A DNA stretch of 32,447 nt. Source: an uncultured Lachnospiraceae bacterium. Lineage in GTDB: Bacteria > Bacillota > Clostridia > Lachnospirales > Lachnospiraceae. Both the position numbers and the translations under genes were made by a program. The notes beneath the pieces are model-generated. The model was not told where the DNA came from and did no database searches. It saw only the letters and a program-made list of their open reading frames with translations. The stretch lies in NCBI GenBank assembly GCA_944384125.1, contig CALWSF010000033.1, positions 1-32,447 on the forward strand, written 5' to 3'. Shown in pieces: positions 21,097 through 32,362 of this stretch. The first letter of the stretch is position 1. Every line of letters starts with the position of its first letter.

Positions 21097-21819
21097 ATGA
21101 ATTTTAATAAAGCAAGAAAACTTTTCGGTGCAATATGTGTCTGTTCTCTGTTTACGGTAGGAGGCCATCAGGTAGCTCTGGCAGGTCCGTCGGACGGCTT
21201 TGAGGATGAGATGGTTGCCATGGTGGAGGCATCTGATGTTTCTATTTATGCGGATGATGATGAGAACTCCCAGGTGGTTGCCATGGCGAAGCAGGGAAGC
21301 AGCTATGACGTGATTGAAGAGGCCGGCGAAGGCTGGGTCAAGGTTGCGGCAGGAGAGCTGGAAGGATACCTGAAAGTGCAGGGAGAAGTGATGCTTACAA
21401 AAGCGGAGGATGCCGCTGAAGCCGCTGCAGAATTTATGGCTGAGCAGAATGATATTTCCGCAAGACAGCAGGTAGTTGAATACGCACTTCAGTTTGTGGG
21501 AGGTCCGTATCGCTACGGCGGCAGTGATCCCCATACAGGAGTTGACTGTTCCGGTTTTACCCGTTATGTGATGCAGAACGGAGCCGGGGTAAGCCTGAAC
21601 CGTTCCTCATCTTCACAGGCTACGCAGGGACGGGCTGTCAGCGCAGCTGAGATGCAGCCGGGAGATCTTATTTTCTACGGCAATGGAAGCCGCATTAATC
21701 ATGTGGCACTTTACATAGGAGATGGACAGGTTGTTCATGCTTCCACAGAGCGTACCGGCATTAAGACATCTCCCTGGAATTACCGCAATCCCGTAAAGAT
21801 TGTGAGTGTCCTGGGTTAA
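21097..21819 (+). CDS. Secreted SH3b-NlpC/P60 cell-wall hydrolase
   Basis: Exported cysteine peptidase that cuts peptidoglycan stem peptides, usually gamma-D-Glu to diamino acid bonds. It has 240 residues. A signal peptide covers 1-29 with a likely cut after HQVALA. A bacterial SH3 domain lies at about 40-100, an Ala/Glu-rich linker at 100-122 and an NlpC/P60 domain at about 124-240. Catalytic C151 is in DCSGF, H202 in NHVALYIG, and H214 in VVHAST completes the site. ATG 21097 was chosen for its fit to the signal peptide, with AAGGAG and GGAG ahead. It has its own strong promoter directly downstream of a two-component system, and a long terminator follows. Confidence 0.93.
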   Translation: MNFNKARKLFGAICVCSLFTVGGHQVALAGPSDGFEDEMVAMVEASDVSIYADDDENSQVVAMAKQGSSYDVIEEAGEGWVKVAAGELEGYLKVQGEVMLTKAEDAAEAAAEFMAEQNDISARQQVVEYALQFVGGPYRYGGSDPHTGVDCSGFTRYVMQNGAGVSLNRSSSSQATQGRAVSAAEMQPGDLIFYGNGSRINHVALYIGDGQVVHASTERTGIKTSPWNYRNPVKIVSVLG

Positions 21820-21870
21820 GGATAAGCCGGCAGATATTGTATCAGAACCTGCGGGAGCAGGAAGCATATA

Positions 21871-21914
21871 TAAAGGAAAAAGGAGTTCGCGGCGGCGGAC
21901 TCCTTTTTCCTTTA
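21871..21914 (+). terminator. Strong terminator after the NlpC/P60 gene
   Basis: A perfect 16-bp stem, 21871-21886 with 21899-21914, has a GC-rich loop. The arms are A-rich and T-rich, so it can act in both directions. Confidence 0.85.
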
Positions 21915-21923
21915 CAAAAAGAC

Positions 21924-21954
21924 TGCATAAAAATTTGTTTGCAGAGCCATACTA
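21924..21954 (+). promoter_or_regulatory. Forespore (sigma-G/F-type) promoter candidate
   Basis: TGCATA (21924-21929), an 18-bp spacer, CATACTA (21948-21954). This matches the sigma-G consensus I know from Bacillus spore-protein genes (GnATR, about 18 bp, CATnnTA). There is no sigma-A promoter in the same stretch. It lies 37 bp ahead of the start codon at 21991. Confidence 0.6.
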
Positions 21955-21990
21955 ACGATGTAACAAAAAAACAGTCAGGAGGTAGCAGAT

Positions 21991-22158
21991 ATGTCTAACA
22001 AAAACAGTTACAGCGACATGGATGACAATACCAGCAAAAACTGTTCACAGAACAGTTACAAGAACAGTTCAAAGAACAGTTCCAAAAACGCAAGCCAGAA
22101 CTCTTACAAAAACAGTTCTCAGAACAAAACTGAGAATACCAGCAAAAACAGCTATTGA
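21991..22158 (+). CDS. 55-residue tetrapeptide-repeat protein, probably forespore-expressed
   Basis: A short gene not matched to any family I know. Residues 16-55 are ten consecutive tetrapeptides with Asn fixed at position 2. Position 1 is Lys, Gln or Glu; position 3 is mostly Ser; position 4 is Ser, Tyr or Thr. The first 15 residues contain a KNSY and a short acidic DMDD stretch. It has no signal peptide or membrane span, and one Cys (residue 18). AGGAGGT (21977-21983) lies 7 bases before the ATG, an excellent site, and a forespore-type promoter stands upstream. The composition recalls gamma-type small acid-soluble spore proteins, but no sequence relation is claimed. A structured segment follows the stop. 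Confidence 0.75.
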   Translation: MSNKNSYSDMDDNTSKNCSQNSYKNSSKNSSKNASQNSYKNSSQNKTENTSKNSY

Positions 22159-22234
22159 TTCGGATAGGGTTAAAGGGACTTGAGGAGTCTGCCCTGAGAC
22201 CGGATAAAGTAATCTGAGCAGTTATTGCGGGAAG

Positions 22235-22365
22235 AAAATGCCGTGAAAGTGAAAAAGGACGGAACCGCTTTCTGGAAACAAGACAGAGCGGCGGGTGCCG
22301 GGACAGCTTTGCAGGGAATGCTGCAAAAGCTGTGAACCTGTTTTGCTTTCGCGGCATTTTTGTGT
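22235..22365 (+). ncRNA. Candidate structured RNA (three-way junction)
   Basis: A 20-bp outer stem joins 22235-22254 to 22341-22360, with three G-U pairs and no mismatch. Inside are two hairpins: 22265-22274 with 22284-22291 (8 bp, 2-base bulge, 9-base loop) and 22304-22314 with 22321-22332 (11 bp, one bulge, 6-base loop). TTTTTGTGTTTT starts within the outer 3' arm and continues past it. It may be an independent small RNA, the 3' end of the tetrapeptide-repeat mRNA, or a leader of the rhodanese gene. It does not match 6S, SRP, tmRNA or RNase P as I know them. Confidence 0.4.
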
Positions 22366-22454
22366 TTTGACAGGTACATATTTCCCGTGTGATGGACACG
22401 TATTGATTTGAAGAAGAATATATTAAATTAAAGATGGACAGGAGGCAGAGCGGA

Positions 22455-22760
22455 ATGTATGAGACAATACCGGTAAACGATCTGGATCGCTGGCTGGAAC
22501 AGGGATACACGGGCAGAATTGTGGATTTGAGAGATCCTGAGTCCTTTTATCGTTCCCATCTTTACGATGCGGAAAACTATCCTTACGAAGAGCTGATGGA
22601 AAATCCGTCTGTTCTGACAGGGGAAGCACCTGTGCTGTTTTACTGCTCCCGCGGGAGTGAGAGTATGCTCGCCTGTAATTATTATTCCCGTCAGGGCCTT
22701 GAGGTATATAATCTGGGAGGCGGCTACCGATATTACCGGGGGAAATATAACGCCTTTTAA
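22455..22760 (+). CDS. Single-domain rhodanese-like sulfurtransferase
   Basis: Cytoplasmic protein of 101 residues, one rhodanese domain. The active-site loop FYCSRGSES carries the persulfide-forming Cys, followed by the Gly-x-x-Ser pattern. VDLRDPESFYRSHLYDAENYPYEEL is the usual start of the domain, and NLGGGYRYY the usual end. ATG 22455 was chosen because AGGAGG ends 9 bases before it; an in-frame ATG at 22434 lies upstream of that site. It probably moves sulfane sulfur or helps thiol redox. It stands between the structured segment and the methyltransferase promoter. Confidence 0.9.
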   Translation: MYETIPVNDLDRWLEQGYTGRIVDLRDPESFYRSHLYDAENYPYEELMENPSVLTGEAPVLFYCSRGSESMLACNYYSRQGLEVYNLGGGYRYYRGKYNAF

Positions 22761-22796: not shown

Positions 22797-22846
22797 AATA
22801 GAAATGAGGATACAAGAGGGGAAAATGAAGAAAAGAGGATTTGGGA

Positions 22847-24007
22847 TTGGAACGATTTGAATTAATAGCGCCGTGCCATTTTGGGCTTGAATCTGTTTTA
22901 AAGAGAGAGATAGCGGCGCTCGGATATAAGATAACGGAAGTGGAAAATGGCCGCGTGACATTTGAGGGGGATGCGGGGGCAATCTGCCGATCCAATATAT
23001 TTCTCCGGACTGCAGAGAGAGTCCTTCTGAAAGTGGGGTCCTTTGAAGCGAAGACTTTTGATGAACTTTTTGAGAAAACACGGGCTGTTCCGTGGGAAAA
23101 ATATCTGCCGAAGGATGGGAAGTGCTGGGTAAAAAAAGCATCTTCCATATCCAGCCGGCTTTTCAGTCCCTCGGATATCCAGCGGATTATGAAAAAGGCA
23201 ATTGCCAGACGCATGCAGGAAAAGTTTGATATGGAACGGATGCCGGAAACGGGCAGCGAATATCCGCTTCGTGTTTTTTTATACAAGGATAAGGTAATAA
23301 TCGGGATCGATACGAGCGGAGATTCCCTGCACCGGAGAGGGTACCGCCAGATGACGAGCAAAGCTCCGCTGACAGAAACCCTGGCGGCCGCGCTGATTCT
23401 TCTCACGCCGTGGAACAGCAGCCGCATTCTGGTGGATCCTTTCTGCGGCAGCGGTACATTCCCCATAGAGGCTGCCATGATTGCCGCTTCTATGGCGCCC
23501 GGTATGAACCGTTCATTTCTTGCAGAGGCATGGACGAATCTGATTCCCCGTTCACTCTGGTATGAAGCGGCGGATGAGGCGGCTTCCATGGTAGATGATT
23601 CTGTTTCGGTTGATATCCAGGGGTACGATGCAGACGGGGATGTTATCCGGGCGGCGCGTGAAAATGCGGAGCGGGCCGGGGTTGCTCATATGATACATTT
23701 TCAGAGACGGCCGGTGGAGGAACTGAGCCATCCGAAAAAATACGGTTTTATAATTACTAATCCGCCTTACGGAGAGAGACTGGAGGAGAAAAAGGATCTG
23801 CCGGATCTGTACCGTACAATAGGAGAGCGTTTTAAAGGTCTGGATTCATGGTCAATGTATCTGATTACGGCATATGAAGATGCGGAGAGGTATATTGGCC
23901 GGAAGGCGGATAAAAACCGGAAAATATATAACGGAATGATGAAAACATATTATTACCAGTTCATGGGGCCAAAACCTCCGAAGAGAAAAACGGGGGACGG
24001 AGAGTGA
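22847..24007 (+). CDS. THUMP-domain class I SAM-dependent RNA methyltransferase (RlmL/YpsC-like)
   Basis: Probable 23S rRNA guanine-N2 methyltransferase of the UPF0020/YpsC family, 386 residues. A ferredoxin-like and THUMP RNA-binding region covers about 1-155. The methyltransferase domain has the SAM motif DPFCGSGTFPIEAAM starting at 197 and the catalytic motif NPPYGERL starting at 305. The start is TTG: 22847 lies 7 bases after AGAGGA and gives MERFELIAPCHFG, the family N-terminus. No in-frame ATG is available. An out-of-frame ATG at 22825 opens an 11-codon frame that ends inside the gene at 22860. The last 4 bases overlap the protease start. The exact rRNA site is not shown by the sequence. 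Confidence 0.88.
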   Translation: MERFELIAPCHFGLESVLKREIAALGYKITEVENGRVTFEGDAGAICRSNIFLRTAERVLLKVGSFEAKTFDELFEKTRAVPWEKYLPKDGKCWVKKASSISSRLFSPSDIQRIMKKAIARRMQEKFDMERMPETGSEYPLRVFLYKDKVIIGIDTSGDSLHRRGYRQMTSKAPLTETLAAALILLTPWNSSRILVDPFCGSGTFPIEAAMIAASMAPGMNRSFLAEAWTNLIPRSLWYEAADEAASMVDDSVSVDIQGYDADGDVIRAARENAERAGVAHMIHFQRRPVEELSHPKKYGFIITNPPYGERLEEKKDLPDLYRTIGERFKGLDSWSMYLITAYEDAERYIGRKADKNRKIYNGMMKTYYYQFMGPKPPKRKTGDGE

Positions 24008-32007: not shown

Positions 32008-32081
<74 letters not shown>

Positions 32082-32109
32082 TCGAATCTGTTATACGGCA
32101 GATTCTTAT

Positions 32110-32184
32110 GGTGGATATAGCGCAGCTGGTTAGCGCGCCAGATTGTGGCTCTGGAGGCCTAGGGTTCGAATCCCTATATCCACC
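32110..32184 (+). tRNA. tRNA-His (anticodon GTG)
   Basis: Acceptor stem GTGGATA (32111-32117) pairs with TATCCAC (32177-32183). Anticodon stem CCAGA/TCTGG has loop TTGTGGC. A G stands at position -1 (32110) opposite C73 (32184), so the histidine identity element is genome-encoded. No encoded CCA. Confidence 0.96.
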
Positions 32185-32209
32185 TTCCTTTTTTAAGGGA
32201 TTTTGCTGA

Positions 32210-32282
32210 TGGGCTATCGCCAAGCGGTAAGGCACAGGACTTTGACTCCTGCATTTCGTTGGTTCGAATCCAACTAGCCCAG
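32210..32282 (+). tRNA. tRNA-Gln (anticodon TTG)
   Basis: 73 nt, no encoded CCA. Acceptor stem TGGGCTA pairs with TAGCCCA, discriminator G. Anticodon stem CAGGA/TCCTG has loop CTTTGAC. Confidence 0.96.
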
Positions 32283-32289
32283 TTAATAA

Positions 32290-32362
32290 GGGGTATTAGC
32301 TCAGTCGGTAGAGCACTTGACTTTTAATCAAGTTGTCCGGGGTTCGAATCCCCGATGCCTCA
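32290..32362 (+). tRNA. tRNA-Lys (anticodon TTT)
   Basis: 73 nt, no encoded CCA. Acceptor stem GGGGTAT pairs with ATGCCTC (two G-U), discriminator A. Anticodon stem CTTGA/TCAAG has loop CTTTTAA. It starts 8 bases after tRNA-Gln. Confidence 0.96.

Follow-up and report, generated by a model that had tools for sequence, protein, structure and literature searches.

The window analyzed here, that is, the whole stretch of 32,447 nucleotides, contains an open reading frame (ORF) for a small Asn-rich protein, which is flanked upstream by an NlpC/P60 gene and downstream by rhodanese-like and methyltransferase genes. The features of this locus are as follows:

21097..21819, plus strand: NlpC/P60 gene (PF00877; start read by eye), the upstream syntenic flank in the genus
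21872..21913, plus strand: hairpin with a 19-bp stem and a 4-nt loop, between the NlpC/P60 gene and the Asn-rich gene (fold of −30.9 kcal/mol)
21925..21929, plus strand: putative −35 element GCATA, which fits GNATA (PMC3416734)
21948..21954, plus strand: putative −10 element CATACTA, 18 nt past the −35 element (16.3 bits with a SASP-only matrix)
21959..21962, plus strand: TGTA within the presumed initiation region, present at SASP promoters too
21977..21982, plus strand: ribosome binding site (RBS) AGGAGG, 8 nt before the ATG (from the sequence)
21991..22158, plus strand: gene for an Asn/Ser/Lys-rich protein of 55 aa (translation and pN/pS; no structure predicted)
22036..22155, plus strand: ten back-to-back [KQE]-N-x-x tetrapeptides (sequence and shuffles)
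22455..22760, plus strand: rhodanese-like gene, the downstream syntenic flank (PF00581; tblastn in relatives)
22841..24007, plus strand: RlmL/THUMP-type methyltransferase gene, the synteny anchor (PF01170, PF22020, PF02926; 187 of 202 genomes)

The hairpin, which none of 200 shuffles equaled in stability, is terminator-like, but it has no U-run past the stem and is absent from the list produced by the terminator scan. The start of the rhodanese-like gene was read by eye behind an AGGAGG, with a longer frame beginning at 22434. Four tRNA genes are clustered at the end of the window (32008-32362).

Direct reading of the 55-aa ORF (21991-22158, plus strand) gave the translation MSNKNSYSDMDDNTSKNCSQNSYKNSSKNSSKNASQNSYKNSSQNKTENTSKNSY, in which residues 16-55 are arranged as KNCS QNSY KNSS KNSS KNAS QNSY KNSS QNKT ENTS KNSY, with Lys, Gln or Glu at position 1 and Asn at position 2 in 10/10 tetrapeptides. 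Eleven Asn residues follow each other at a spacing of four (N13-N53), a run that was matched by 0 of 200,000 shuffles of the protein's own residues. The 55-codon gene with ten tetrapeptides described in the initial annotation was thereby confirmed, as was the ribosome binding site, there called excellent, which lies at 21977-21982. Pooled over six genus members, pN/pS was 0.33 in the named frame, whereas the two remaining sense frames gave 0.89 and 0.69 and the three antisense frames 1.00, 0.49 and 0.84. Genes in these other frames were considered and rejected: although sense frame +1 runs uninterrupted through 6/6 genus members, its pN/pS is 0.89, and sense frame +2 is interrupted by stops. 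One antisense frame is open across nearly the entire gene (within a 171-aa ORF, 22510-21995), but its pN/pS is 0.84, and the remaining two (1.00 and 0.49) carry stops in 6/6 members. The window protein matched no Pfam and no NCBIfam model; searches with 24 family members yielded a single Pfam match overall (BNIP3, E 0.97) and none in NCBIfam. AlphaFold predicted no structure for the window protein, with a mean pLDDT of 53 from a shallow alignment of six rows.

With regard to the promoter, the arrangement TGCATA-18 bp-CATACTA reported in the initial annotation is present as written and agrees with the published sigma-G consensus. The B. subtilis table lists GNATA and CAWAMTA for sigma-G (PMC3416734), and GCATA-N18-CATACTA in the window corresponds to both elements at about 17–18 nt, the consensus hexamers being those of that table and the spacing that of the matches to the SASP matrix. 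The score of 16.3 bits is that of the 16 bases starting at 21948, with a matrix built from alpha/beta-SASP promoters only. Promoters for sigma-K or sigma-E were rejected, since the consensus sequences tabulated for them, GCATANNNTA and KCATANANTN, misfit the window sequence (PMC3416734), and no sigma-70-type promoter was found in a scan of 21700-22500. Within the assembly (3.44 Mb, 94% complete), two places carry CATACTANNNNTGTA, the window ORF and an alpha/beta-SASP gene; because the reversed control occurs at five places in the same assembly, the count alone is uninformative, and it is the identity of the two places that is informative.

A homologue was recognizable by sequence in six of the eight genomes of the genus, including the window's own, in which the ORF is the only match; G003 and G007 gave no sequence match. 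The genus homologues lie between the NlpC/P60 and the rhodanese/methyltransferase genes, with CATACTA upstream; in relatives, reading frame, putative promoter and position are all conserved. Searching by profile alone performs poorly in this family: the profile A2 matched 61 genomes, in 24 of which the match was unconfirmed as a small ORF with an RBS. Eight of these 24 are among the 99 sigG-negative genomes defined below, and none was confirmed as a member: four (G060, G090, G185, G254) were inspected in the sequence, and four (G088, G127, G144, G301) were excluded on open-frame length only, as were some sigG-positive genomes. In five others of the 24, all sigG-positive (G038, G101, G134, G164, G186), a member is present at the syntenic locus. 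A class-wide search, which covered the tetrapeptide profile only and not other Asn-rich versions, matched 12 of 291 genomes, and in the ten of these that lie outside the family no small Asn-rich repeat ORF was found; one locus among these, L078, contains a 91-aa ORF with 18% Asn that lacks such a repeat. In G171, a tandem pair of Asn-rich ORFs (L085) is accompanied by a third copy at the syntenic locus (L309). No paper naming such a family was found among the open-licence papers searched.

The SASP matrix used above has 16 ungapped positions and was made solely from alpha/beta-SASP promoters; of 30 alpha/beta-SASP loci taken from the family, 29 had a start that could be located and 27 an element of the anticipated form. 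It was applied to 42 homologues, defined as A1/A2 profile matches that passed the rule for small ORF, RBS and Asn content (two from G171). At least 8 bits were reached by 29/42 Asn-rich upstream regions, compared with 4/80 control ORFs (other ORFs of more than 120 aa from the loci in the comparison) and 14/840 shuffles. Among the 29 homologues at or above this threshold, 28 also carry GHATR, which we take to be a form of the −35 element, 17–19 nt upstream of the −10 element, where 3.9% would be expected at random. The other 13 of the 42 upstream regions scored below 8 bits; low scorers such as L064, L072, L086, L092 and L103 do contain CATACTA, with a longer gap to TGTA, and were missed because the SASP matrix is ungapped.

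We also searched the 299 family genomes promoter-first, with CATACTANNNNTGTA followed by AGGAGG 10–40 nt further on. This pattern occurred at 44 places in 41 of the genomes (four of the places taken from loci L012, L014, L022 and L033), compared with five for the reversed control. Behind the 44 places were 25 Asn-rich small proteins, a number to be read with the fact that the pattern favors Asn-rich genes because it was partly derived from them, and five alpha/beta SASPs. The rest comprised five CotF/DUF3231-like proteins, three DUF1540-like proteins, two related 27-aa peptides and four others, with classes assigned by eye and one or two per non-SASP class checked in Pfam. The sole match in a sigG-negative genome (G255) is followed by no ORF and is one of the four others. 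Of the 25 Asn-rich ORFs, 13 had nevertheless been missed by the protein profile. Behind this sigma-G-type module, five proteins of 59–61 aa are encoded at L109, L115, L118, L121 and L129, and the two tested (L115, L118) gave weak matches, below cut-off, to DUF3231, DUF2383, DUF1657 or Coat_F. Cys-rich DUF1540-like proteins are encoded at L110, L135 and L139, of which L135 was tested and matched PF07561. The 27-aa peptides (NQSNQ...GDEPI; L114, L125) come from different genera, and that of L125 had no Pfam match.

For the link to sigG, the model TIGR02850 was matched below 1e-60 in 200 of the 299 family genomes, and in the other 99 no match was better than 1e-45; this is a split by E-value, as the curated cut-off of the model was reached in 0/299. 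This split agreed with the presence of PF00269 SASPs in 99 of the 100 genomes compared. Members found by profile or promoter were present in 49/200 sigG-positive vs. 0/99 sigG-negative genomes, and sigG is present in the genome of every member confirmed in the 299 typed genomes.

Since the sequence drifts fast, position was used for the search as well. The region up to 2.3 kb upstream of the RlmL-like gene was examined at the matches listed, leaving out the window's own; this sample comprised 115 sigG-positive genomes and 34 sigG-negative regions (33 genomes). A fixed rule (35–180 aa, RBS with at least 5 of 6 positions, no less than 15% Asn and no more than 10% hydrophobics plus Pro) had been set after the family was known and before the syntenic regions were examined. 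Among these listed matches, a small Asn-rich sense ORF was located upstream of the RlmL-like gene in 91/115 sigG-positive genomes and in 0/34 sigG-negative regions. The former value combines 86/106 in a first set with 5/9 added in checking, the latter a lower rate, seen in genomes among those least like the window, so that the rate may be lower still beyond the matches listed. Counted per genome, again among the matches listed, the first set gave 86/106 vs. 0/33 (p = 2e-18). In all comparisons by sigG, the genomes are not phylogenetically independent. Of the 20/106 first-set genomes without a sense match under the fixed rule, five had Asn-rich ORFs on the opposite strand, four had ORFs found under a relaxed rule (L249, L257, L311, L318), four ended in contig fragments of less than 1400 nt, and seven had none; the 4/9 added genomes without a match comprised one 782-nt contig end and three with none (matches listed in both cases). 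The relaxed rule, applied to the sense strand only, gave no ORF in the sigG-negative regions among the matches listed. At L228, L270, L283, L287 and L294, from five sigG-positive genomes, the Asn-rich ORF and the methyltransferase gene lie in opposite orientations.

Within 200 nt upstream of the ORF, the pattern GHATR-N17..19-NATAMTA was found in 67 of the 86 syntenic members from the first set of listed matches and was missing in 19, compared with 7/860 shuffles and, likewise among the matches listed, 1/365 windows of sigG-negative regions; three of the five listed members added in checking carry it too. The rhodanese flank was present in 61/106 sigG-positive vs. 1/34 sigG-negative regions among the matches listed, and the absence of the ORF from the latter is partly that of a changed locus, because this flank is mostly gone there. 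Where neither flank was found, the Asn-rich ORF was still present in 33/44 sigG-positive vs. 0/32 sigG-negative regions (matches listed). The rhodanese-like gene (22455-22760) may itself be linked to sporulation, or the locus may have been rearranged.

These data bear on the view that the ORF is a functionless low-complexity by-product, in which a promoter happens to precede a sequence prone to forming repeats. In favor of this view, slippage can occur at repeats of 12-nt period, and 6/6 genus members have a second sense frame without stops across the gene; purifying selection in the named frame, the position kept in 91/115 sigG-positive genomes and none of 34 sigG-negative regions, and the promoter pattern at 67/86 syntenic members, both counts among the matches listed, already largely contradict it, and we regard it as very improbable. 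By the evidence of its sequence, the 55-aa ORF is instead a protein gene under selection with a SASP-type promoter, which among the genomes examined occurs only in those with sigG. Of the forespore protein proposed in the initial annotation, the conserved frame, promoter and position and the restriction to sigG genomes have held up at this level; expression in the forespore is what we infer from the promoter comparison and the co-occurrence with sigG, which support it.

The repeats of the syntenic members vary (NSSQ/NSSR, NKNAS, ANNTSN, QNNQ, NKNASNKNAS, SNANNTSNANN and others), and the tetrapeptide, as judged from these sequences, does not define the family but is one of the forms that its changeable Asn-rich repeat can take. 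What the members appear to share is being small, disordered, mostly net-basic and rich in Asn, Ser, Lys and Gln, outside Pfam and NCBIfam; because the sequence evolves fast, detection rests on composition plus position. In the 86 syntenic members among the matches listed, the median length was 61 aa, Asn made up 31% and Ser 20%, and about 1% was accounted for by I, L, V, F, W and P combined. Mean Asn plus Gln was 38% for the 86 members, as against 15% for SASPs and 7% for seven window genes, and the window protein has 29%; side-chain nitrogens per residue were 0.58 for the members, 0.34 for SASPs, 0.35 for the window genes and 0.44 for the window protein. No E[IFVL]A (GPR-type) site was found in 42 profile-found members or in the 86 syntenic members from the matches listed, and the usual degradation route is therefore missing; E[IFVLC]A was present in 29/29 alpha/beta SASPs. 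Cys occurs in 56 of the 86 listed syntenic members, which is unexpected for a plain reserve. Exactly one Cys was counted in 30/42 profile-found and 44/86 syntenic members, and a thiol-store reading prompted by the latter value was dropped, as 30/86 have no Cys (syntenic counts among the matches listed).

There seems to be an even chance that the Asn-rich ORF is a real gene of a widespread Lachnospiraceae family that is expressed in the forespore under sigma-G and provides a GPR-independent store of amino acids and nitrogen in the spore core. A sigma-G-class promoter belonging to the gene itself would drive its transcription in the forespore, jointly with that of the alpha/beta SASPs; the protein would accumulate in the spore core as an unstructured store, working like a gamma-type SASP, and would be broken down in germination or outgrowth by a protease other than GPR. 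The Asn/Gln-rich and nitrogen-rich make-up and the absence of the gamma-SASP profile are the basis for proposing a reserve function. As the protein is short and has a single sequence match in its own genome, this store would be small unless expression were very high.

The same composition would also suit a disordered protectant made in the forespore, in which a net-basic hydrophilic chain coats DNA or RNA or, as a glass or condensate, fills the core while it loses water. Net charge is above zero in 82 and zero in four of the 86 syntenic members among the matches listed, with a median pI of 9.5, hydrophobic residues are almost absent, and the promoter class is shared with the DNA-binding alpha/beta SASPs. 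However, these listed members carry little charge, mostly between +2 and +5, with Asn and Ser outweighing Lys and Arg, and the searches described above gave neither a Pfam match nor a predicted fold. We consider a protectant rather unlikely.

As regards the store reading, it can be widened, with somewhat less than even confidence, to the proposal that Lachnospiraceae spore-formers possess an independently evolved counterpart of gamma-type SASPs, namely a core protein that is rich in Asn, evolves fast, is GPR-independent and sigma-G-driven, and is encoded at a conserved locus. Its sequence would be constrained almost only in composition (Asn, Ser, Lys and Gln, no bulky hydrophobics), as would follow if its function lay in bulk amino-acid content or chain hydration.

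The Lachnospiraceae are a large group of gut spore-formers, and the predictable position of the gene allows immediate annotation and makes it a candidate marker, at the genome level, for spore-forming members. More generally, the composition and location of a spore protein can be retained although its sequence changes, with the result that profile libraries miss it. Gamma-type SASPs are reported to be absent from clostridia (PMC3533761, PMC8452069); the Asn-rich family is a concrete sporulation-linked candidate for what feeds or fills their spore cores, and the 55-aa protein may take the place of the nutrient-storing spore protein believed to be missing from this group.

Among known spore proteins, the alpha/beta-type SASPs (PF00269) resemble the Asn-rich family in the ATA[AC]TA element with a downstream GTA element and in occurring in genomes of the same family. 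They are conserved and have a GPR-type site (29/29), in contrast to the Asn-rich protein, which is predicted to be disordered, is fast-evolving and was unmatched by PF00269; the two PF00269 matches of its own genome are at other loci.

GerG of Clostridioides difficile is likewise a spore-linked, Asn-rich low-complexity repeat protein (PMC5241399), and a similar role for the Asn-rich family, as a structural or gel-forming protein that aids assembly or loading of germination or coat components, has to be weighed. GerG is described as containing about 30% Asn, with Asn-rich repeats capable of gel formation in vitro, and as affecting germination, but also as the product of a mother-cell sigma-E gene with longer, Met/Pro-rich GMPNNMSNNMNSNM repeats that are dispensable for its germination role, and is reported there only in C. 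difficile (PMC5241399). The Asn-rich family differs in promoter class and repeat, having SASP-type (sigma-G) promoters, little Met and almost no Pro, and a GerG-like role appears improbable.

The Asn-rich protein is not a member of the gamma-type SASPs, as both the profile and the GPR-site tests failed: PF04259 matched none of the 24 Asn-rich members and 0/200 family genomes, with the B. subtilis control matching. Gamma-type SASPs (SspE, PF04259) are small, Asn/Gln-rich and repetitive, with a GPR cleavage site of the E-[IF]-A type. Unlike them, the Asn-rich family has no E[IFVL]A site, has other, highly variable repeats and often contains Cys. Of the gamma-type likeness suggested in the initial annotation, the exact tetrapeptide did not prove to be family-defining; as an analogy, the likeness is nevertheless the best supported, the shared features being small size, Asn/Gln richness, repetitiveness, a sigma-G-class promoter and a presumed role as a spore-core store.
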